A stretch of DNA of 64,000 nucleotides from a virus. Made by a program: the position numbers and the translations under genes. The DNA lies in IMG/VR virus record IMGVR_UViG_3300036851_000360, positions 1-64,000 of that record, one strand, 5' to 3'. Under the pieces are notes generated by a model, which searched no databases, was not told where the DNA came from, and was given only the letters and a program-made list of their open reading frames with translations. Positions 6,482 to 24,904 of the stretch are shown in pieces (positions within the stretch are counted from its first letter, which is position 1; the number at the start of each line of letters is the position of its first letter).

Positions 6482-7696
6482 GTGGCTTCAACATTCATTA
6501 AGGCGGAGAAGATCGCCGCGCAGGCTCTCGGCCTTCTGGAGCGGGAGATCATCATCCCGGCTCTGGTGTGGCGCGACGCCGGCGGCAGCTTCCAGGGCGC
6601 GGCCGGTGACACCATCACGATCCGGGTGCCAGCCCGCACCCAGGCCCGCACCCGCCCGCTGCGCGGGACCCGCCCGACCACCTCCGAGGGTGCGGGCATC
6701 ATCACGATGGACGAGCTGACCGAGACCTCGGTCGACGTCACGCTCGACACCGCGGTCTACTCGGCGGTGCCGATCACCGATGAGGAGCTGTCGCTCGACA
6801 TCTCCGACTTCGGCGCGCAGATCGCGGAGCCGCAGGTTCGGGCGGTCGCCGAGGGCATCGAGAACGCGGTGGTCGCGGAGATGACCGGCGCGACCTATGC
6901 GACCACGCTCACCCTGGACACCTCGCAGCCGTACAAGACGGTCGTCGACGCCCGGGTGGCGTTGAACAAGGCGAACGTTCCGATGTCGGAGCGGGTGCTG
7001 GTGGTCGGCGCGGACCTTGAGGGGATCTTCCTGAAGTCCGACGAGCTGCACCAGGCGGACAAGGCTGGTACCGACTCGGCGCTGCGTGACGCCACCATCG
7101 GGTCGCTGGCCGGGTTCAACCGGGTCGTCGTGTCCAACGCGCTCCCTGCGAATGTGGGGTTCGCGTTCCACCGCACCGCGTACGTGCTCGGTATGCGTTC
7201 CCCGCTGGTGCCGGACGGCGCCACCTACGGTGCGTCGCGTAACGCGTTCGGTCTCGCTATGCGGTGGATCCGTGACTACGACTTCCGCAACGTGCAGGAC
7301 CGGTCGCTGTTCGACACCTACATCGGAACGAACGTGGTTGCGGACGGCGCCGACGAGGTCCAGACGGTGACGATCACCGGCACCCCGACGGGTGGCACGT
7401 TCACCCTGACCTGGAGTGGGCAGACCACCGCGGCGATCGCCTACAACGCCACTGCGGCGGCGGTGCAGTCGGCGCTGCTGGCGCTGTCGAACATGCCGGA
7501 GTCGTATGTGTCCGTGACCGGTGGTCCTGGCCCTGGCACTCCGTATTCGGTGCGGTTCGCCGACGGCGCCAACGTCGCCCAGATGACTGCCTCGGGTGCC
7601 GGCCTCACCGGCGGTACGAGCCCCGCCGTGGCGGTCGCGACCGCCACGGGTGGCGGGTCGGCGACGCTGGTCCGCGCGGTCAAGATCACGGTCTGA
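6482..7696 (+). CDS. major capsid protein with C-terminal Ig-like domain
   Basis: Main coat protein, HK97 fold of the P22-coat-like actinophage type. Residues 1-290 carry the coat domain, including an N-arm (MASTFIKAEKIAAQALGLLE) and an E-loop region (TQARTRPLRGTRPTT). Residues about 293-400 form an added domain (VQTVTITGTPTGGTFTLTWS ... AAVQSALLAL) of a type found as a repeated beta-sandwich appendage on actinophage virion proteins, probably displayed on the capsid surface. GTG 6482 follows a perfect AGGAGG by 5 nt, consistent with very high expression. Confidence 0.9.
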   Translation: MASTFIKAEKIAAQALGLLEREIIIPALVWRDAGGSFQGAAGDTITIRVPARTQARTRPLRGTRPTTSEGAGIITMDELTETSVDVTLDTAVYSAVPITDEELSLDISDFGAQIAEPQVRAVAEGIENAVVAEMTGATYATTLTLDTSQPYKTVVDARVALNKANVPMSERVLVVGADLEGIFLKSDELHQADKAGTDSALRDATIGSLAGFNRVVVSNALPANVGFAFHRTAYVLGMRSPLVPDGATYGASRNAFGLAMRWIRDYDFRNVQDRSLFDTYIGTNVVADGADEVQTVTITGTPTGGTFTLTWSGQTTAAIAYNATAAAVQSALLALSNMPESYVSVTGGPGPGTPYSVRFADGANVAQMTASGAGLTGGTSPAVAVATATGGGSATLVRAVKITV

Positions 7697-7699
7697 CCG

Positions 7700-8149
7700 G
7701 TGCTCCCGCTCGCGACGATCCCCGAACTCGAGGCGCGTCTCGGGCGGGTACTCACCGGGGCCGAGCTCGACCGGGCCAACGGATTGCTCGACGACGCCTC
7801 CGCCCTGGTGCGGGACGTTGCGGGCAAGACCTGGATCGACCCCGGCACCGGGCTTCTGGAGCCGGTGCCGGGGTCGATCCGATGGGTGGTGTTGCGGGCC
7901 GCCGAGCGTGCCATCCGGAACCCGCAAGGGTTCTCCTCGGAGTCGGCCGGTGACTACTCGTATCAGCGCACCGGGGTCGAACCCGGGGTGTACCTCACCG
8001 AAGGTGAGGAGAAGGCCATCCGGAAGGCCATCGGCAAGACCGGGTTGTGGACGCAGCCGGTGACCCGCGGCGACGAGTACCTGCACACCGTGTGGGGTGA
8101 GGACCAGTTCGGGGCTGAGCTGTTCCCGCTCGACGTCTACCGAGACTGA
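7700..8149 (+). CDS. head-tail connector (adaptor) protein
   Basis: A 149-residue protein in the position of the gp6/gp15-type adaptor ring that sits under the portal. The helical N-terminus (ATIPELEARLGRVLTGAELD), conserved Trp (KTWIDP) and a middle helix with bulky residues fit this family. It starts 3 nt after the coat gene at a GTG without a strong ribosome site, so it probably depends on coupling. Assignment rests on order and gestalt. Confidence 0.75.
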   Translation: MLPLATIPELEARLGRVLTGAELDRANGLLDDASALVRDVAGKTWIDPGTGLLEPVPGSIRWVVLRAAERAIRNPQGFSSESAGDYSYQRTGVEPGVYLTEGEEKAIRKAIGKTGLWTQPVTRGDEYLHTVWGEDQFGAELFPLDVYRD

Positions 8150-8163
8150 ACGGGGGGTCGGCC

Positions 8164-8508
8164 GTGCTGCTTGATCATGGCCCGCACACCGTGCAGATCT
8201 GGATGGAAGAGGAGATCACCGACTCCCGCGGCAACGTCGTCCGCCGACCTGTTGCGGATCCGGTGACCGTGACCGGATGTCTGGTGCATCCAGTGGCTTC
8301 CACCCGGGGTGCGTTCAGCGCGATCGATGTCCGGCAGGGCCAGCGTGTCGACGCCTCGTGGCGGCTGATGGCCCGCGACGCACCGCTCGGCTGGTGGTCG
8401 AAGGTCGAGTTCGACGGCAAGACGATGACAGTGCTGGGTGGGCCGCTCGTCTACACCATGTCCGACGGCACCCGGCACGTGTCCGCGACCCTGCAAGAGG
8501 AGCGCTGA
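8164..8508 (+). CDS. head-tail stopper protein
   Basis: A 114-residue beta-rich protein (HTVQIWMEEEITDSRGNVVR ... VEFDGKTMTVLGG) matching the small beta-barrel stopper (SPP1 gp16-like) that closes the DNA channel after packaging. Its place between adaptor and tail-terminator genes supports this. GTG start at 8164. Confidence 0.7.
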   Translation: MLLDHGPHTVQIWMEEEITDSRGNVVRRPVADPVTVTGCLVHPVASTRGAFSAIDVRQGQRVDASWRLMARDAPLGWWSKVEFDGKTMTVLGGPLVYTMSDGTRHVSATLQEER

Positions 8509-8509
8509 C

Positions 8510-8800
8510 ATGGCCATCGTCTATGCCTTCGCCACCGACGAGTACTTCGCGAAGCTGCCGGGTGTGCGGGGCGAGATCCGCAGCACCGCAAACGCTGGCG
8601 CGGGGCGGGCTGAGGCGATCCTGGCCGCGCACCGCGCCGAGGGGCACTCCCAGATCACCGTTACCCACGGCGGTCTCGACTACTTCGTCAGCCTGGACGA
8701 CACCCGCGGGGATCACGCCGCGGCAGCGATCGAGTATGGCCGTCGTGGTGGCAGGTCCGGGCGCACCGCCGGGATTCACGCGCTGCGGGGCGCGTTCTGA
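8510..8800 (+). CDS. neck protein (DUF5403-like)
   Basis: A 96-residue protein at the position of the HK97 gp10-like neck component. The opening MAIVYAFATDEYFAKLPGV and the following Ala/Arg helix resemble the actinophage DUF5403 group, known mainly from head-tail joining modules. ATG 8510 follows the stopper stop closely, with GAGGAGC upstream. The last base overlaps the next start. An in-frame start at 8438 is rejected because it lies within the stopper gene. Confidence 0.65.
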   Translation: MAIVYAFATDEYFAKLPGVRGEIRSTANAGAGRAEAILAAHRAEGHSQITVTHGGLDYFVSLDDTRGDHAAAAIEYGRRGGRSGRTAGIHALRGAF

Positions 8801-9228
8801 TGCCCCGTTTCGCTGTCGACTACCTCGACGTTCTCACCACTCTGCTGCGCGCTGAGCTGCCCGGGGTGAAGGTGATGACTCGGATCCCGGACCACATCAC
8901 CGAGCACCTACCGCTGGTTGTGATCCGCCGCGTGGGTGGTGATTCCCCAGCTCCGGAGTTCTTCGACCAGCCGTGGATCAACGTGCAGTGCTGGTGTGAA
9001 GACGACCGGGCCTCCGGCGTTGATGCCTTTCGACTCGCCGCGAACCTCGCCGACGACGTGCGCCGCGTGCTGTGGACGGCGTACCGCACCCAGCAAGTGA
9101 TCCACGGCTTGGGGTGGATCGGCTGGATCCGGGAAACCTCTGGGCCGCAAGAGGTCTCCGACCCTGACCTCGTGTTCTTGGGTCGCTACTCGGCCACGTA
9201 CGAGCTGCGCATCCGTTCCGCGGCCTGA
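8800..9228 (+). CDS. tail terminator protein
   Basis: A 142-residue protein in the place of the tail terminator, which caps the tail tube and docks it to the head. N-terminal helix (YLDVLTTLLRAELPGVKV), central strand LPLVVIRRVGG and the D-x-D helix region (SGVDAFRLAANLADDVRRVL) fit this family's alpha/beta fold. It lies directly before the major tail protein. Confidence 0.75.
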   Translation: MPRFAVDYLDVLTTLLRAELPGVKVMTRIPDHITEHLPLVVIRRVGGDSPAPEFFDQPWINVQCWCEDDRASGVDAFRLAANLADDVRRVLWTAYRTQQVIHGLGWIGWIRETSGPQEVSDPDLVFLGRYSATYELRIRSAA

Positions 9229-15707: not shown

Positions 15708-16997
15708 GTGGTCAACAGGTACTCGCCGCGGACGCCGGCCTGGGTGGACGGGCCGCAAGGGTTGGTGTTCGCGGCCGACGCGAACCGCTGGGAGCAGGGC
15801 ATCGAGGCGCTCGACAACGCCCTCGACGCCGCCGAGGGTCGGCTGGACGCGCTGCAGGCCGCGCTCGGAGGCATCACCGCCACCGGTGTCCCGGTAGTCA
15901 CTACCGCCACTCGCGGCACGCCCACCAAGGGCCGGATCGTCTTCGACGACGACCTGGATCAGTACATCGGCGGGACCGGGACTGCATGGATCGAACTCAG
16001 CGTCGGCGAGGAGGTCCCCGGCCCCGGTTCCGGGACCGCACCGACCGGGCTGACCGCGGTCACCCAGCCGGACAACTCGATCGTCGTGAGCTGGAACCCG
16101 GTGGTGGGTGCGACCCACTACAAGCTGTACGAGATCCGCTCCCCGGGCGGCGTCTCGGGCGCGGACAACATCACCACGACCTCGACCACGCGCACCCCTA
16201 GCTCGATGGGCAACTACGAGTACTGGGTGACCGCCTTTGTCGGCGGCGTGGAGTCGGCGCAGTCCAACCACGGGCTCTGCGTGCTGCCCTACAGCACCGG
16301 CGGCGGCGGTGGAGGTGGTTCCGGCAGCACGCCGGCGCAGCTGCTCGCGCTCGGATCGACCGGCGGCAAGTGGAACCTAGGTGTCGGTTACCCGTCCGGG
16401 CACGTCGACATCGCACCGTCCACGTTGGAGGGCGGCTGGACGGAAGCCCCGTACTTCTACGTCAATGAGGCCGGGACCAAGGTCCACTTCCAGGTCCCGA
16501 TGAACGGCGGGCGCACGAGCTCCAATACGAAATATCCCCGGTGCGAGCTGCGCGAGTACATCGGTAGCTCCAAGGCGGCGTGGTCCGGGTCGTCCGGAAC
16601 GCATGTGATGTCCGGGCGGACCACCGTCCTGCACATGGAGTCCGGCAAGCCGGAGATGGTCGTCGCGCAGATGCACGACGGGTCGGATGACACCCTGCAG
16701 ATCCGGGTCGAGGGCACGACGTGGCGCGCGTCGATCAACGGCACCGAGCACTCCACCACGCTGGGCACGTTCTCGACGGGCACCGAGGTGGCGTGGGAGA
16801 TCCGGGTGGTCAACGGCACACTCACGATCAAGATCAACGGCACCACGAAGATCACAACCAACCCAGGATACGGCTCAGGGCAGTACTTCAAGGTGGGCTG
16901 CTACGCACAGCAGAACAACACCTCCGATGGCGGCGGCAACCCCGACAACGGGTACGCGTCCTGCGAACTGCGGGACCTCGTAGTTACGCACAGCTGA
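15708..16997 (+). CDS. tail protein with FN3 and PL7 alginate-lyase-like domain
   Basis: A 429-residue virion-associated depolymerase candidate. Residues 1-55 look like a tail-attachment coiled segment; about 104-190 form a fibronectin type III-like domain; a Gly/Ser linker (202-212) leads to a PL7 alginate-lyase fold (about 215-429). PL7 signatures are visible: YPRCELREY, VVAQMHD (the Q-x-H site) and YFKVGCYAQQN. It would cut uronic-acid polymers in the host coat. GGGGAGAAC precedes GTG 15708. The end overlaps the next gene (TGATG). Confidence 0.8.
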   Translation: MVNRYSPRTPAWVDGPQGLVFAADANRWEQGIEALDNALDAAEGRLDALQAALGGITATGVPVVTTATRGTPTKGRIVFDDDLDQYIGGTGTAWIELSVGEEVPGPGSGTAPTGLTAVTQPDNSIVVSWNPVVGATHYKLYEIRSPGGVSGADNITTTSTTRTPSSMGNYEYWVTAFVGGVESAQSNHGLCVLPYSTGGGGGGGSGSTPAQLLALGSTGGKWNLGVGYPSGHVDIAPSTLEGGWTEAPYFYVNEAGTKVHFQVPMNGGRTSSNTKYPRCELREYIGSSKAAWSGSSGTHVMSGRTTVLHMESGKPEMVVAQMHDGSDDTLQIRVEGTTWRASINGTEHSTTLGTFSTGTEVAWEIRVVNGTLTIKINGTTKITTNPGYGSGQYFKVGCYAQQNNTSDGGGNPDNGYASCELRDLVVTHS

Positions 16998-19900
16998 TGG
17001 CGACGATCTATGTCTCCACGACCGGAAGCGACGGCAACGCGGGCACGACGCCGGGCTCACCCAAGCTGACCCTCGGCGGTGGGCTGGCCGCCGCGAGCGC
17101 CGGGGACACGGTGCAGGTCGCGTCCGGCACCTATAGCGGCAACTTCATCACCAGCAAGGGCGGATCGTCGGGGAACTTCATCACGATTCGCTCCGAGGTG
17201 AAGCACGGTGCGAAGATCAGTGGCAACGACGGCACCTCGAACGAGTCCGCGGTCGAGATCAACCACGCCTACATCCGCGTCCAGGATTTCGAGATTACCG
17301 GCACGGCCGGGTCGGGCCTCCGGAACGGTGTGATCGTCAACGCGGACAACGTCGAGGTCATCGGCAACCACATCCACACCACCTGCCAGTTTTTGACCGA
17401 AGGGACTTCTTGGCAGGGCGGCGCCGGGATCGACTTCTGGGGCGCGTCGCGGACGAACGTCTTGGTCGACGGCAACCGCATCCACCACATCGGGGCGCCG
17501 GGTAGCACCCAGCAACTGGTGCACGGCCTGTACCCAGCACAGCCGGCGACGAACTGCCGCATCGTCAACAACGTGGTCTACGACTGCGAGGACTACGGCA
17601 TCCAGCCGTACCCGGAGGACGAGGCCACCGGCTGGAAGATCGTCAACAACACGGTGGTCGCGTGTGGGCGCGGCATCCGCACCGGCGACAACACAATCGT
17701 CCGCAACAACATCAGCTACAACAACAAGGCGAACAACTTCGACGTCCGCGGCTCCGGCAGCACCCTGTCGAACAACATCTCGGGCGGCTCCGGCTCATCC
17801 AGCATGTCCGGGGTCACCGTCGCCAACCCGCTGTTCACCAACTACTCGGCCCGGGACCTGACTTTGGCTGCGGGGAGCCCCGCCCTGGACGCGGGCACCG
17901 CCACCGACGCCCCGGCCACCGACGTCGCCGCCACCGCCCGTCCGCAGGGGTCTGCGGTGGATGCTGGTGCCTACGAGAAGCCAGCCGCCGTCGGAGGCGG
18001 GACAGGCGCGCCGTACACGCTCGCGTTCCCCGACGGGACGCCCTACCCGACGATCCCGGCCGGTACGACCGTGGTCAATGTGTCGACGTCGTCGGCCTTG
18101 TCCTCGGCGTTGTCGTCGGCGACCGCCGGGCAGCGGATCGTGCTCGCGGACGGGTCGTACTCGGGCGCGTTCTCGATGTCCGGGCGGGCAGGCACGGCGG
18201 CGGCCGGGATCTCGGTTGAAGCGGCCAACGTCGGCGGTGCGACGTTCGCGACCGGATCGACGTTCCGGGTCACGAACTGCTCGTACGTGACGATCTCGGG
18301 TCTGATGTTCAACTGGCAGGGCGAAGGCGAGACCTTTCAATTCCGTGGCACGTCACACCACTGTCGGCTCACCCGCTCCACGTTCGGCCCGACCACGCAC
18401 GCCGAGTCGTCCGGTGTGCAGACCTGGGTTTTCATCGGGGACGACTGCTACCACATCCGGATTGATCACAACGAGATCCGGAACAAGGGAACGAGCGGCA
18501 ACGGCGTCCGGGTGTACGGCTCGTTCGCGAAGGTCGACGCCGGCCAGGGCTCGAGCGCCGGTTGCCGGTGGGTGCGCATCGACCACAACATCTTCCGGTC
18601 GATCAAGCCTGAGGTGGGCAACGACAAGGAACCGGTGCGCTACGGCGTGTCCACGATGTCGCGGACGATCAGCAACGGCGTCATCGAGCGGAACCGCTTC
18701 GAGGACTGCATCTGTGAACCTGAGGTCATCTCGGTGAAGATGGGCGGCATCCGGACCACCGGTAACACCATCTACCGGTGCGCGGGTGGGCCGGTGATCC
18801 GTCACGGCACCAACTCGGTCATGAGCGATAACTACGTGGTGGACCGGGTTGACACCTTCGGCACCACCATCGGCTCCGGCGGCATCCGGTTCTACGACGC
18901 GGATCACGAGGTTGCCTACAACTACATTGACGGTGTCTTTGGCGGGAACTTCCAAGGCCCGCTGCTGCTGGACACCGGCGACGCCGAGGGCTCGAGCACG
19001 AACCTGTCCGGGCACTGGCGGGTCATCGGCGCCGACGTGCAGCGGAACGTGATCGTCGACTGCCCCGAGGGCATCCGGATCGGCGATAACTATTCGTCGG
19101 TGCCACGGGACTGCCGGATCCAACACAATCTCGTGGTCGATGCCGACTCCGGCGCCGCCATCACCCAGCGGGTCGCTCCGTCTAACACGGTGCTGGACGG
19201 AACGAACGTCTACTACGCCACCACGACCGCGGCGGGGATGACCCAAGACGCGGACACGATCTGGCGCAAGCCGGGATTCGGACCCCGGCTGACCTACCTG
19301 GAGCAGGCCGACGTCGGCCCGGCCGGGGACCTCGGGGACACCGACGGAACCGGTGTTGAGGCGGGCGGTATCGCCGCCGACCCGGCCGACATCCTGAACA
19401 TCGGGGCCGACGAGGGCCAGAACCATTTCCAGCTGCAGTACGCCCTCGACGGCAGCACCGGCAACGACATCACCATCACACAGTTCGACGACGTCGCTGC
19501 CGGGTTCACCGCCGACCCGTACTTCAAGGTCGTCACGAACCTCGATGGCGCACCTGCGGTGCAGTTCCGGGTGCGGGCGGACGCGGCCACTACGACAGGT
19601 TCGTCGACACCGCGCTCGGAGCTACGGGAGACCCGCGCCGACGGCACCGAGATGGCGTTCGACGCCATGCACGGCGACCATTCGCTGCGCACTCGGGTCC
19701 GGATCACCCACCTGCCAGCGGGTGACCCCGAGGTCGTCGTGGCGCAACTGCACAACGGCGTCACCGGGGACCGGATCGCGATCCGCACACAGCTGGTGTC
19801 CAGCCAGATCAAGTTGCTGTGCCGGATCAACGGCACCCAGGTGGATCCCCGGTTCGACGAGTCCTACGCGGTGGGCGACGAATTCGAGGTCTTCGTCAAG

Positions 19901-20986
19901 GTGCTGGACGGTGGGCTTGTCGAGGTCTACTACAACGGCGTCACCGAGCCCACGGTCACCGGCCAGCTGGCCGCGAGCGGAGCGGGCGCCTCCTGGTACT
20001 GGAAGCTGGGGGCATACGCGCAGTTCGACGAGACCACCACGTCGGCCACCGAGTACGTGTCGGTCGAGCACCGCGACCTGCAAGTCACCCATGGCGGCGG
20101 CCGGGTGGACGCAGGCGCGGACGCGCAGGTGATCACGGGGCAGGCATTCACTCGGCTGGCGCAGGAGCTCGGTCTCACCGGGGTCACGGCCCGCCGTTGG
20201 ACGATCGTGTCTCGGCCGCTGCCGCCCGACCCGGAACCCGACCCGGGTCCGGGCGACCCGGGGGACATGACGATCGCCGCGGTCCGGCACGGCTGGGGCA
20301 CTCCGCACGCGTTGTCCGACGAGTTCGACTACACCGGCCCGCCGAACTCGACGAAGTGGAAGCTGCCCGGCGCGGACTGGGCCGGGCACAACGGCAACGG
20401 TCGTCGCCGCCCGGAACGGCAGACCGTCGCCGACGGGAAGTTCGTCATGACCGGGCTGCAGAACGGCGACACGGGGTGGTGTCAACATCGGCTGGACGTG
20501 CAGTACGGCCGCTGGGAGGCGCGGGTTCGGAGCTTCGCCGGGGCCCCGTCCGCGGGCGAACCGGACTCCACGTCGAACGGCAACGACTATCACCCGCTGC
20601 TGCTGCTGTGGCCGCAAAGCAACTCCCGTCAAACCGATGGCGAATATGACTGGATGGAAAACGGGGCGCCAGGCGAAAACACGCTTGAGGCGTTCATCCA
20701 CTACCCGCATCCAGGCACGAGCGTGGTTCAGCAGGAGCACTTCGAGCGGCCCAACAGCAGCCTGAGCCAGTTCCACAACATCGCCATGGAGTGGACCTCT
20801 CAGCACATCAAGGGCTTCTTCGACGGCGTGGAGTGGTTCTCCGTGAGCGGGGGTGCGAACAGCGTGCGACGCAACATCCAAACCATGCCCGCGGGTCACG
20901 CGGTGATACAGCTCGACGACTTCGACGGCACCAATCAGACGCCAGCAACGATCGAGCTCGAATGGTTCCGTTATTACAGTCTGTGA
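16997..20986 (+). CDS. multidomain tail depolymerase: beta-helix, PL6, PL7, GH16
   Basis: A 1329-residue tail protein with several carbohydrate-active folds in a row. Residues 1-330: right-handed beta-helix (DUF1565/pectate-lyase type). About 350-640: second beta-helix with PL6 chondroitinase-B-like signatures (VISVKMGG with the Lys, PVIRHG with the Arg). About 805-1031: PL7 domain (TPRSELRET, VVAQLHN, YWKLGAYAQFD). About 1034-1074: first half of a PKD/Ig-like domain. About 1095-1329: GH16 domain with the catalytic E-x-D-x-x-E (GEYDWMENG). The stop TGA at 20984 is followed in the same frame by the next ORF, which begins with the missing half of the PKD-like domain. Codons at the GH16 end are less GC-rich than neighbours, suggesting recent acquisition. 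Confidence 0.8.
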   Translation: MATIYVSTTGSDGNAGTTPGSPKLTLGGGLAAASAGDTVQVASGTYSGNFITSKGGSSGNFITIRSEVKHGAKISGNDGTSNESAVEINHAYIRVQDFEITGTAGSGLRNGVIVNADNVEVIGNHIHTTCQFLTEGTSWQGGAGIDFWGASRTNVLVDGNRIHHIGAPGSTQQLVHGLYPAQPATNCRIVNNVVYDCEDYGIQPYPEDEATGWKIVNNTVVACGRGIRTGDNTIVRNNISYNNKANNFDVRGSGSTLSNNISGGSGSSSMSGVTVANPLFTNYSARDLTLAAGSPALDAGTATDAPATDVAATARPQGSAVDAGAYEKPAAVGGGTGAPYTLAFPDGTPYPTIPAGTTVVNVSTSSALSSALSSATAGQRIVLADGSYSGAFSMSGRAGTAAAGISVEAANVGGATFATGSTFRVTNCSYVTISGLMFNWQGEGETFQFRGTSHHCRLTRSTFGPTTHAESSGVQTWVFIGDDCYHIRIDHNEIRNKGTSGNGVRVYGSFAKVDAGQGSSAGCRWVRIDHNIFRSIKPEVGNDKEPVRYGVSTMSRTISNGVIERNRFEDCICEPEVISVKMGGIRTTGNTIYRCAGGPVIRHGTNSVMSDNYVVDRVDTFGTTIGSGGIRFYDADHEVAYNYIDGVFGGNFQGPLLLDTGDAEGSSTNLSGHWRVIGADVQRNVIVDCPEGIRIGDNYSSVPRDCRIQHNLVVDADSGAAITQRVAPSNTVLDGTNVYYATTTAAGMTQDADTIWRKPGFGPRLTYLEQADVGPAGDLGDTDGTGVEAGGIAADPADILNIGADEGQNHFQLQYALDGSTGNDITITQFDDVAAGFTADPYFKVVTNLDGAPAVQFRVRADAATTTGSSTPRSELRETRADGTEMAFDAMHGDHSLRTRVRITHLPAGDPEVVVAQLHNGVTGDRIAIRTQLVSSQIKLLCRINGTQVDPRFDESYAVGDEFEVFVKVLDGGLVEVYYNGVTEPTVTGQLAASGAGASWYWKLGAYAQFDETTTSATEYVSVEHRDLQVTHGGGRVDAGADAQVITGQAFTRLAQELGLTGVTARRWTIVSRPLPPDPEPDPGPGDPGDMTIAAVRHGWGTPHALSDEFDYTGPPNSTKWKLPGADWAGHNGNGRRRPERQTVADGKFVMTGLQNGDTGWCQHRLDVQYGRWEARVRSFAGAPSAGEPDSTSNGNDYHPLLLLWPQSNSRQTDGEYDWMENGAPGENTLEAFIHYPHPGTSVVQQEHFERPNSSLSQFHNIAMEWTSQHIKGFFDGVEWFSVSGGANSVRRNIQTMPAGHAVIQLDDFDGTNQTPATIELEWFRYYSL

Positions 20987-21019
20987 TTGGCGGGAGTCAA
21001 CGGCGATGAGGCAGCTGTT

Positions 21020-24000
21020 GTGACCGGCCCGATCGATAGCGACGCCGAACTCAACTGGGTCGCCCCGACCACCACCGGCACCTACGTCATCCGCTACGCG
21101 GTCGACGCGAACGAGGGCACGTTCAGCGACGACGTAGTCGTCACGGTGGTGGACGCCCCAACCGGCCCGCAGACGGTTCACCTGGACTCGATCCCATCCC
21201 GGGCGGCCATCGGCGAACCCACCATCGTCATCGACCAGCCGGCTGGCGCGACCCCGACCATGCTCGGCGTCAACACCGTCCTGGGCGAGACATTCTTCCT
21301 GGGCTACAACCCCCAAGTCCCGACCGGCCCGCAGACCGTCCACCTGGACTCGATCCCATCCCGGGCGATCGTCGGCGAGCCGACGGTCACGGTGCGCCCG
21401 GCGCCACTGCCGGTCGTCGTCAACCTGGACTCGATCCCGTCGCGGCTGCGGATCGGTGCCCCGTCGGTGACGGTTGGGAACGCCCCACCGGACCAGCCGA
21501 TCACCGACCTGACCCTCTCGCTGTTCGCGATCGACCCGGCCACCGGGTACGGGATCCCGCTCCCGGATTTCGAGTCCCTCACGCTGTCGCCGTTGCGGAA
21601 CTCCGGCGGCTCGATCAGCCTGGACTACCCGGAGGACGGCGAGAACTTCGCGGTCCTGCGAGCCGCGATCACCAACGGCCGCGACGTCGAGGTCGAGATC
21701 TGGGTGTCCGGCACCTCCCGCGGTGCCCTGCGCGGCTATCTACAGGAAGCCCAGGGCGACGACACGGCCGAGGACGGCGCGTGGACGTTCGCCGGCGGCT
21801 TCCTCGGGTTGCGCATGGACGAGGCGTGGATCCGCCCGCAGGAACAGGGCCCGCTCGTCCCCGATGACGACGACAACCCGGACAACGACCAGCACGCCAA
21901 CGAGAAGCGTGAACTGATCTTCAACGCGTCGACCGCGGGTACCGTGATGGCCACGGCCATGACCCAGGCCCACACCCGCAACGCACTGAGCGACATCGTC
22001 TGGGACTTCACCGCCACCCACGACTCCGACGGCACCCCCTGGCCACAGGTGATCACCACCCGGTTCAGCCCGGGCGCCAGCTACAAGCAGCTACTGGATC
22101 GGCTGGTCACCCTCGGACTCGCCGAGTGGGACGTGCAGTGGAGCGGCGCCCACCGGGTACTGAGGATGTGGGTGCCGGAGGGCCGGGGCACCGACCTGTC
22201 CGACGACGCGGTACCGGTGGTACTGCAGCACGGGCAGAACATCCTGGACGCCCCCCGACGCTGGTCGGTGCGCGAGGCCGGCACGACGGTGATGGTGGCC
22301 GGCGCGGACGGCCTCTACGACGAGGCATCGGACGCGACCGCGCTCACCCGCCGGGGTCGGCGGATCGAGCGGTTCGTGTCGGCGAACAACCTGGCCGACG
22401 CGGGCGCGGTCACCGCTTACGCGCTCAACCAGCTCCCACTGGTCACCACCGGGCTGCACGAGGTCACGCACGGGATCGGGTTCCTGTCCGGCTCGCCACG
22501 GCCGATCGTCACCTACGACGTCGGGGACTGGGTGCTGTCCGAGTCCGGGGACACCCAGGAACGGTTGCGGGTGGTGCAGTGGACGTTGACCGTCGACAAC
22601 GATGGGGGCCTGTCCGGGACGGTCACACTCAACGACACCGTCACCGACGCCCTGGTGCGGTTGCAGGCCCGCCTGGACGCCATCACCTCCGGTGAGACGG
22701 TCGTCGGCACGAGCGAGCCGTCGTCGGGGAACCTGTCGGACATCACCCCGCCCGCCGCGCCGGAGGGCCTGGTCGTCTCCTCGATCGCCTACCAGGACCC
22801 GGCGCACACCAACACCCTCGCGTCGGTCACGGTGGGCTGGCTGCCGGTCGTCACCAACGCCGACGGTTCGAACTACCCGCAAGTCCAGGCCGCGCGCTAC
22901 CTCCTGCTTCAGATGGAGGATCTGGAGAACAACCCGCCGGACCCCGACGATCCCGACGACGACAGGATGATCGACCAGGACACCTGGACCTGGGCGGACT
23001 GTCCCCAGGTGGTCCAGGACTACGCGGGGGTGCTGCGCCAGGAGTGGGTCGCTGACGGCAGCCCGGCGGGCGTGGAGACGTGGCTGCAGTCCTACGTCGC
23101 CGAGTTCTCCGCCACCCCGACGGCGACCGACGACGTGGCTGGCTACAAGGTGCGCTACGCCTACCTCGGCCTGGATCAGGTCGGCGGGATCCCGAGTTCG
23201 GACCCGTTCCCTGACGACGACCGGGTCTACTACGAGGCCACCCCGTCGAACGGCATCTCGGGCACGTCGTGGACGTTCGGCGGGGTCGAGGCCGGCGCGA
23301 ACCTGCGCATCGAGGTGCAGGCGTTCGACCGGTCCAGCAACCACGGGCCGTGGGCGTCGATCGGGCACGACACCGCCATCGACGACACCCCGCCGCCCCG
23401 CCCCGGACCGCCCGGGATCACGGCGTCGTTCCGCGGGGTGCACATCACCTGGGACGGGCTCGGCCAGATCGGCGAGCCGATGCCGATGGACTTCGACCAC
23501 GTCGAGGTGTGGATTAGCCAGTCTGCGGACTTCTCCACGGCAGCGTCCACGGCTGGGTTGGCTACCGCGTTCGACCCGTTGAACCCGAACCCGCAGCATG
23601 TCGGGGACCTGTTCGCGGCCGGGACTCATCCGGTGCAGGACATGCTGTACGAGGTCGGCTACTACGCGGCTCTGCGGGCGGTGGACCGGTCGGGGAACGT
23701 GTCGCTGATGTCGGCGGCCGGCGGGCCAGCCACGGCGGAGAAGCTGTTCTCCGACGACCTGCGCGATCAGATCATCAACGACTCCTCGATGATCGCCGCG
23801 CAGACCATCGGCACGTTGCATGTTGTCGACGGTGCGATCATCACCGCGAAGATCGCCGATCTTGCGGTGAACAACGCGAAGATCGCCGACCTCGAGGTGG
23901 GCAAACTCCGCTCCGGGACGATGATCGCGCAAGTCACGATCGCCGGGAAGTTCCGCACCCACGAGTCCGACGCCGCGAACCGGGTCGAGTTCGACGCCGC

Positions 24001-24904
24001 AGGGCTGCGGCTCTACCGCGGCTCGACCGTCGTTGGGTCGTGGAACGTCACCGACGGATCCATGCTGATCACGGGAACGTGGCGCACCGGGCTGACCGGG
24101 GAACGCGCCGAGGGCCACCCGGACGGCTCGGTCCGCTGGTACCCCCAGTCCGGGTCTAACTACTCCCAGATAGCGAACTTCGGCAACGACGTCGTGTGGC
24201 GCGGCCCTCTCGACACAGCCGGCCGCTCCGGGCGGATCAATGTCAACGCCCTTGGTGTCGGGTTGAACTTCTCCGCCGAGTCGGAGATCCCCAGCAACCT
24301 CCGCGCAGAGATCGCCGTGTTCGACCGCCGGGCCCGCATCACCAGCCCATTCGCAGCGTTCGAGGTGAACGGGAAGCTGGACAACCCCGCCGGCGGGCCA
24401 CGCCGGTTCCAGTTCTCCCAAACCTCCGCGTCCGGGACGACGCTGCCGTACTCATACCTGTCGTACATGGCCTCCTCCTCGTCAGGTCGGGGCGGGTTCT
24501 GGGGTAACGGCGCTGGCATCAAGATGGAGGCCGGTCAGGTTCTGGTCACCGGCGACGAGCTCGACGGGTTCGGCGTCATCAAGGCGAACGAGTTCGCGGT
24601 CGCCTCCAGCGCGCAGATCAAACGCGACATCGTGGACGTCGACGACGAGGCGGTTCCGCTTGACCCGGAGCAGGTGTTCCGTGACGCCCCGGCGGTGCAG
24701 TTCAACTACGTCGACGACGCCCCCGATGTGCCGCCGCGGCTGGGTGTGCTCGCCGAGCAGATGCCGGAACTGATGCGACACGTCGGCCCTGACGGCAAGG
24801 GCGGTGTGGTCCTGTCAGTTGGGGTGACGAGCCAGCTCGCCCTCCAACACGCGGCGCTCCGCCGCATCATCGCCCGCCTGGACGCCCTGGAAGGAAGCCT
24901 GTGA
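21020..24904 (+). CDS. tail hub / minor tail protein with C-terminal S74-type chaperone
   Basis: A roughly 1294-residue tip protein. It begins with half an Ig/PKD-like domain, then three LDSIPSR repeats (from 21181, 21342 and 21424), then the actinophage central hub region (LTLSLFAIDPATGYGIPLPD ... LTLSPLRNSGGSISLDYP), FN3-like domains, a trimerising fiber part and a C-terminal S74 intramolecular chaperone (AQIKRDIVDVDDEA ... LGVLAEQMPEL). Such chaperones guide trimer folding and are then released by self-cleavage. GTG 21020 with GAGG 8 nt upstream is chosen; the frame is open back to the stop at 20986, with a TTG at 20987 that lacks a ribosome site. Confidence 0.8.
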   Translation: MTGPIDSDAELNWVAPTTTGTYVIRYAVDANEGTFSDDVVVTVVDAPTGPQTVHLDSIPSRAAIGEPTIVIDQPAGATPTMLGVNTVLGETFFLGYNPQVPTGPQTVHLDSIPSRAIVGEPTVTVRPAPLPVVVNLDSIPSRLRIGAPSVTVGNAPPDQPITDLTLSLFAIDPATGYGIPLPDFESLTLSPLRNSGGSISLDYPEDGENFAVLRAAITNGRDVEVEIWVSGTSRGALRGYLQEAQGDDTAEDGAWTFAGGFLGLRMDEAWIRPQEQGPLVPDDDDNPDNDQHANEKRELIFNASTAGTVMATAMTQAHTRNALSDIVWDFTATHDSDGTPWPQVITTRFSPGASYKQLLDRLVTLGLAEWDVQWSGAHRVLRMWVPEGRGTDLSDDAVPVVLQHGQNILDAPRRWSVREAGTTVMVAGADGLYDEASDATALTRRGRRIERFVSANNLADAGAVTAYALNQLPLVTTGLHEVTHGIGFLSGSPRPIVTYDVGDWVLSESGDTQERLRVVQWTLTVDNDGGLSGTVTLNDTVTDALVRLQARLDAITSGETVVGTSEPSSGNLSDITPPAAPEGLVVSSIAYQDPAHTNTLASVTVGWLPVVTNADGSNYPQVQAARYLLLQMEDLENNPPDPDDPDDDRMIDQDTWTWADCPQVVQDYAGVLRQEWVADGSPAGVETWLQSYVAEFSATPTATDDVAGYKVRYAYLGLDQVGGIPSSDPFPDDDRVYYEATPSNGISGTSWTFGGVEAGANLRIEVQAFDRSSNHGPWASIGHDTAIDDTPPPRPGPPGITASFRGVHITWDGLGQIGEPMPMDFDHVEVWISQSADFSTAASTAGLATAFDPLNPNPQHVGDLFAAGTHPVQDMLYEVGYYAALRAVDRSGNVSLMSAAGGPATAEKLFSDDLRDQIINDSSMIAAQTIGTLHVVDGAIITAKIADLAVNNAKIADLEVGKLRSGTMIAQVTIAGKFRTHESDAANRVEFDAAGLRLYRGSTVVGSWNVTDGSMLITGTWRTGLTGERAEGHPDGSVRWYPQSGSNYSQIANFGNDVVWRGPLDTAGRSGRINVNALGVGLNFSAESEIPSNLRAEIAVFDRRARITSPFAAFEVNGKLDNPAGGPRRFQFSQTSASGTTLPYSYLSYMASSSSGRGGFWGNGAGIKMEAGQVLVTGDELDGFGVIKANEFAVASSAQIKRDIVDVDDEAVPLDPEQVFRDAPAVQFNYVDDAPDVPPRLGVLAEQMPELMRHVGPDGKGGVVLSVGVTSQLALQHAALRRIIARLDALEGSL
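21161..21480 (+). repeat. three LDSIPSR-coding repeats
   Basis: Near-identical segments begin at 21181, 21342 and 21424, the first two preceded by the same accggcccgcagac stretch. Each encodes a short beta unit (V-x-LDSIPSR ... IG-x-P-x-V). This is a repeat type seen in actinophage tip proteins, probably an extended stalk. Confidence 0.7.

Follow-up and report, generated by a model that had tools for sequence, protein, structure and literature searches.

An Ig/PKD-like domain apparently divided between two adjacent phage tail genes around a GH16 domain

Why should a large phage tail gene end directly behind a GH16 domain, with a second tail gene opening just after it, and why should each carry beside this junction what looks like half of an Ig/PKD-like domain? 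The question is raised by a 64,000-nucleotide stretch (here called the window) of an IMG/VR virus record 72,180 bases long (IMGVR_UViG_3300036851_000360). Its tape measure protein has matches in 1008 phage records, which by name are actinobacterial phages except for 4, which makes an actinophage the most likely identity of the virus. Gene 1 (16997..20986; this and all window features given below lie on the plus strand) encodes an N-terminal beta-helix-like part, a PL6-like (Chondroitinas_B) domain with its C-terminal extension (18020..19420), a PL7-like (Alginate_lyase2) domain (19421..20095), the first Ig/PKD-like half (20096..20218), a Pro/Asp-rich linker of 16 residues (20219..20266), and the GH16 domain (20267..20983), and it closes with a TGA stop (20984..20986). 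After a 33-base spacer with GAGG upstream of the start (20987..21019) follows gene 2 (21020..24904), whose product is a large tail protein weakly matched by tail fibre families and whose N-terminal part (21023..21157) contains the second half. Scans of IMG/VR recovered three other contigs (L001, L004, and L006), two of which, L001 and L004, repeat the order of the window (PL7, first half, GH16, stop, second half, tail body). The divided arrangement, with separate stops and starts, is thus common to the window, L001, and L004. L001 and L004 match gene 1 only from about its residue 340 onward, the window having an extra N-terminal beta-helix-like part at 16997-18010.

As a reference for the two flanks, we used a profile of 86 positions derived from the Ig/PKD-like domains of five Streptomyces phages (see below), with their insert left out and with no window sequence included. 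On this profile, gene 1 of the window takes up positions 2-41, and positions 47-86 are matched by gene 2; the corresponding segments are 2-44 and 45-86 in L001 and 2-40 and 48 or 49-86 in L004. Joined over profile positions 2-86, the halves score 48.7 (window), 42.8 (L001), and 47.8 (L004) bits, against a maximum of 11.4 bits in a shuffle control that covers the joined sequence of the window only (1982 of 2000 shuffles scored). A comparison of the joined domain with the Streptomyces-phage domain by hhalign gave a probability of 98.8, and the homology extends over the whole length of the latter. Among 1512 stop-to-stop segments from the window and the three relative loci, the first four places by profile score go to the gene 2 starts of all three genomes and to gene 1 of the window; the gene 1 halves of L004 (9.5 bits) and L001 (5.4 bits) rank 6th and 13th, and hence the first half is weak by itself in those two relatives. 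Over the entire length of the four records, the profile had no hits besides these two halves in the window, L001, and L004, and none at all in L006. Core residues in the patterns R-x-W-x-I-V-S and Y-x-x-R-Y are common to the window-type halves and the Streptomyces-phage domains. By these comparisons, the matching halves that the first-pass annotation had proposed on either side of the GH16 domain and its stop were recovered, and the view that the flanks represent complementary pieces of one Ig/PKD-like domain is well supported.

The Streptomyces phages came to notice when the joined halves of the window, used as a query against phages, gave a weak pointer to gp58 of Streptomyces phage Ponzi (L015, 3149-5632), in which a GH46 chitosanase lies inside an Ig/PKD-like domain. 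A search with the Ponzi domain recovered 30 records, exclusively from Streptomyces phages, 29 of which bear a chitosanase or glycoside hydrolase annotation, while the remaining one, from Scarif, has a Glyco_hydro_46 note. In all five that we examined in detail (Ponzi, Scarif, Rima, Psst1, and DrGrey; L015 and L018-L021), an insert of 256 residues occupies a later loop, the domain is uninterrupted at the break point of the window, and a profile of the window type in the reverse search finds both halves flanking the chitosanase. Rimavirus and related Streptomyces phages (e.g., Rima gp21 and Ponzi gp58) are therefore like the window in bearing an enzyme inside the same, profile-homologous Ig/PKD-like domain but differ from it in the enzyme (GH46), in the loop, which is a later one, and in having no stop, so that a single protein results. 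With Pfam, the joined window domain matches K319L-like_PKD only partially (E = 0.016) and the Ponzi homologue matches it at 1-84 of 84 (E = 5.9e-5), while the joined Ponzi domain spans almost the full length of K319L-like_PKD, Big_9, and PKD across the break point; all of these matches fall under the cut-offs. Searches of phages by tblastn with the joined halves of the window or L004 returned weak hits only, including Ponzi and Scarif, and a generic hand-written Ig consensus gave no match. The check suggested by the first-pass annotation, namely, relatives that lack GH16 and have an uninterrupted domain, yielded none at this locus in either the viral (IMG/VR) or the genome scans, and the continuity at the break point is that of the Streptomyces-phage domains.

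The GH16 domain at the end of gene 1 is genuine as judged from profiles and a structural model. Its match to Pfam PF00722 (E = 0.0043, 17 or 20.2 bits) lies below the cut-off of 22, and that of its L006 homologue (38.8 bits) lies above it. A GH16 profile search of the PDB retrieved GH16 glucanases, and in Foldseek a model of low mean confidence, which has the GH16 beta-jelly-roll fold, found GH16 structures (laminarinases) as its best matches (E = 1.6e-9). The ExDxxE motif, which we take to be the GH16 catalytic motif, is present as EYDWME (E126-x-D128-x-x-E131) and is invariant in all four GH16 homologues. The domain thus shares profile, fold, and motif with the GH16 endo-beta-1,3-glucanases/laminarinases (LamA; PDB code 4bq1), from which it differs in belonging to a phage tail protein; its activity is putative, and we infer that it acts on a host surface glucan. 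The lower GC content that had been noticed at the GH16 end is real (59.4% at 20627-20983, in the lowest 0.3% among windows of equal length), but the same end shows a weaker dip in L001, L004, and L006 (63.0, 66.1, and 63.6%). Since it recurs in all of the relatives, the low GC is a trait of this GH16 and no mark of a recent insertion into the window genome. A recent transfer of GH16 between the window and L001, to which a protein identity of 93% pointed, found no support, since synonymous sites have diverged as much here as in the flanking regions (pS of 0.44 versus 0.33-0.50). L004 additionally encodes a second, different GH16 domain downstream (16244-17086; 62.8 bits, above the Pfam cut-off).

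At the gene boundary, the first-pass annotation had seen two ORFs in the same frame parted by nothing but a TGA. The ORF at 16997-20986 is indeed closed by TGA and the frame is open from 20987 to 24904, but the most probable start of gene 2 is GTG 21020 rather than the position directly after the stop, where the mechanically called ORF begins with TTG 20987. The M-T-x-P-I-D start of gene 2 is conserved, being initiated by GTG in the window and L001 and by ATG in L004, and the predicted ribosome pairing is moderate at these three starts (-5.6, -7.9, and -7.0) and absent at TTG 20987, although these energies fall inside the range of random in-gene sites (5% at -8.0). Nor is the shared frame general: in L004 gene 2 lies in a frame different from that of gene 1, its start sharing an ATGA with the gene 1 stop, while L001 has a TAG and then a TGA, with the same frame on both sides and a GAGGAG stretch before its GTG. 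The spacing between the genes varies accordingly (33 bases in the window, 27 in L001, and an overlap in L004), and the in-frame stop as such is incidental. The insert codes for the linker and GH16 only and contains nothing of an intron, intein, or homing endonuclease; Rfam found no intron family, its one subthreshold match lying elsewhere. Direct repeats at the two junctions reached scores of 6, 6, and 7, which are attained by 73, 80, and 51% of random pairs, so that none goes beyond chance.

The history that we favor, and consider moderately probable when taken as a whole, is that the insertion of a module split one tail gene, the halves of the interrupted domain persisting to form, possibly, a noncovalent joint. 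The ancestor would have been an actinophage-like siphovirus with one large tail protein, in which an Ig/PKD-like domain stood between a polysaccharide lyase part and the tail body. A module comprising the linker, GH16, a stop codon, and a new start signal would then have entered the loop that follows the R-x-W-x-I-V-S strand. Two products would have resulted: a lyase protein that carries half of the Ig domain shortly before its terminal GH16 and, opening with the other half, a protein of the tail body. The origin of the arrangement by insertion, as such, is likely. The corresponding proposal of the first-pass annotation, that an inserted linker, GH16, and stop cut one tail gene in two, is supported at the level of the domain family, where adjacent, nonoverlapping halves lie on a continuous profile, but is unproven for the locus itself, the scans having yielded no orthologous empty site. 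The most distant relative, L006, bears on the sequence of steps. It has the C-terminal PL6 part, GH16, and the tail body in one ORF, with neither PL7 between them nor an Ig half, which shows that this tail region can exist as one gene and that GH16, fused here to the tail body without a stop, is not by itself the cause of the split. That L006 possesses GH16 but neither the Ig halves nor PL7 at this place counts against the favored history, in that it permits more than one order of events.

The same contig lends something to the idea that an intact domain never existed at this locus and that separate module swaps, with breakpoints within Ig domains, brought the halves together around GH16: L006 has GH16 at the same place without an Ig half, and PL7, the beta-helix segment, an opposite-strand ORF, and the Ig halves all vary among the four relatives. 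We nevertheless regard this course as improbable, because independent breakpoints would have had to meet by chance for the halves to be adjacent and nonoverlapping on the profile in three relatives. It has also to be asked whether the two genes are functionally one, with the stop read through or bypassed by a frameshift or an intron to give a single fusion of about 2600 residues, an alternative that the first-pass annotation had left standing. The common frame on both sides in the window and L001 would permit this, but gene 2 is out of frame in L004 and two stops stand in a row in L001, so that such a fusion is unlikely; with the conserved residues at the gene 2 start and the absence of an Rfam intron family, we rejected read-through, frameshift, and intron alike as highly improbable. 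Finally, what could be said for an error of sequencing or assembly is the metagenomic nature of the related contigs and the unknown origin of the virus record to which the window belongs. A separate stop and start at the same place in three contigs about 30% apart in protein sequence leave this explanation a negligible chance, and it was discarded.

If module insertion did split the gene, the two half domains might be no more than relics, or otherwise used, with the GH16 protein held by other domains or released. The lengths of the halves are constant in the window, L001, and L004 (41 and 45 codons), with no indel in either half, and the lengths of the linker (16, 12, and 16 residues, respectively) and of the gene spacing differ among the three. 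Protein identities among these relatives are 61-73% and 56-67% for the halves and 70-72% for the tail body. Columns that are conserved in the Streptomyces phages are invariant in 25 of 38 cases versus 18 of 41 elsewhere (one-sided P = 0.04 for both halves together and 0.11 and 0.17 singly). Substitutions in the halves show no concentration at third positions, and pN/pS in the same three pairs is 0.49-1.29 for the halves versus 0.47-0.53 for the body. Selective constraint on the halves is therefore likely as we read these data, but the evidence for it is weak and the halves evolve somewhat faster than the neighboring body, which speaks for relics. Structure prediction also yielded no fold, the AlphaFold models having mean pLDDT values of 44.3 for the read-through stretch and 33.8 for the gene 2 start (low confidence). 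The lack of indels across three genomes whose tail bodies are about 30% divergent and the core residues held in common with the Streptomyces-phage domains argue the other way, and we consider the relic outcome rather unlikely.

Under the favored history of a split by insertion, the half domains would still co-fold and keep the enzyme protein anchored to the tail by noncovalent contacts. In the usual Ig topology, strands A-C would come from the first half and the later ones from the second, so that each sheet would contain both chains; and because the stop adjoins the start, the production of the two chains side by side would be favored. On both grounds, the halves may complete one domain that tethers the enzyme protein. 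We tentatively suggest that the locus encodes a natural split-domain joint, in which two tail proteins translated separately from adjacent stop and start codons would interlock via one Ig fold, the tail gaining an enzyme and a protein boundary without losing the attachment; this specific proposal is possible but less secure than the insertion itself.

The shuffling of enzyme and Ig-like domains is common in the tail spikes and fibers that serve as phage receptor-binding proteins (PMC10684548), and domain shuffling is what the window shares with these mosaic proteins; the division of one domain between two genes by an enzyme is not described in the part of that article available to us. Likewise, an Ig-like part that lambda carries within gpJ as a fusion is encoded on its own in other phages (PMC12309495), but as far as the accessible part of that source goes, it is the whole domain that stands apart in such tail spikes, while in the window the domain itself is divided. 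We found no Ig domain split in two around an enzyme in the literature searched, which left most subscription journals outside. The exchange of entire domains is known from phage tail proteins; in the present case, a single domain is split over two of them, its parts separated by an enzyme and a gene boundary, in three diverged relatives. Should the halves still co-fold, the locus would parallel in nature the split-protein tags made by engineering and would explain how an enzyme can be added to a tail with the attachment kept. With the chitosanase of the Streptomyces phages as the other case, Ig/PKD-like tail domains stand out as places of enzyme insertion.

A second interrupted domain is found nearby, and it counts in favor of the insertion history. 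The PL6-like domain, intact in the window and L004, is broken in L001 and L006 by a beta-helix segment plus a stop, and the rest of it restarts as a new ORF (7206-8846 and 8846-10981 in L001; 5837-7543 and 7878-13025 in L006). The restart occurs at an identical residue in both (M-A-T-F-G-T-T-I-G-S), via a TGATG overlap in L001 and after a stretch with an opposite-strand ORF in L006. As the first ORFs of L001 and L006 are only 52% identical, the PL6 interruption is not recent. Cysteine-rich ORFs near the tail genes of L004 (5991-7010) and L006 (3364-4221) look HNH-like by eye and have no Pfam match at 0.01. In L006, the ORF between both PL6 parts is a small one on the opposite strand (7543-7880). 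Within the one tail region, the PL6-like domain is seen both occupied by an insert with stop and restart (L001 and L006) and empty (the window and L004).
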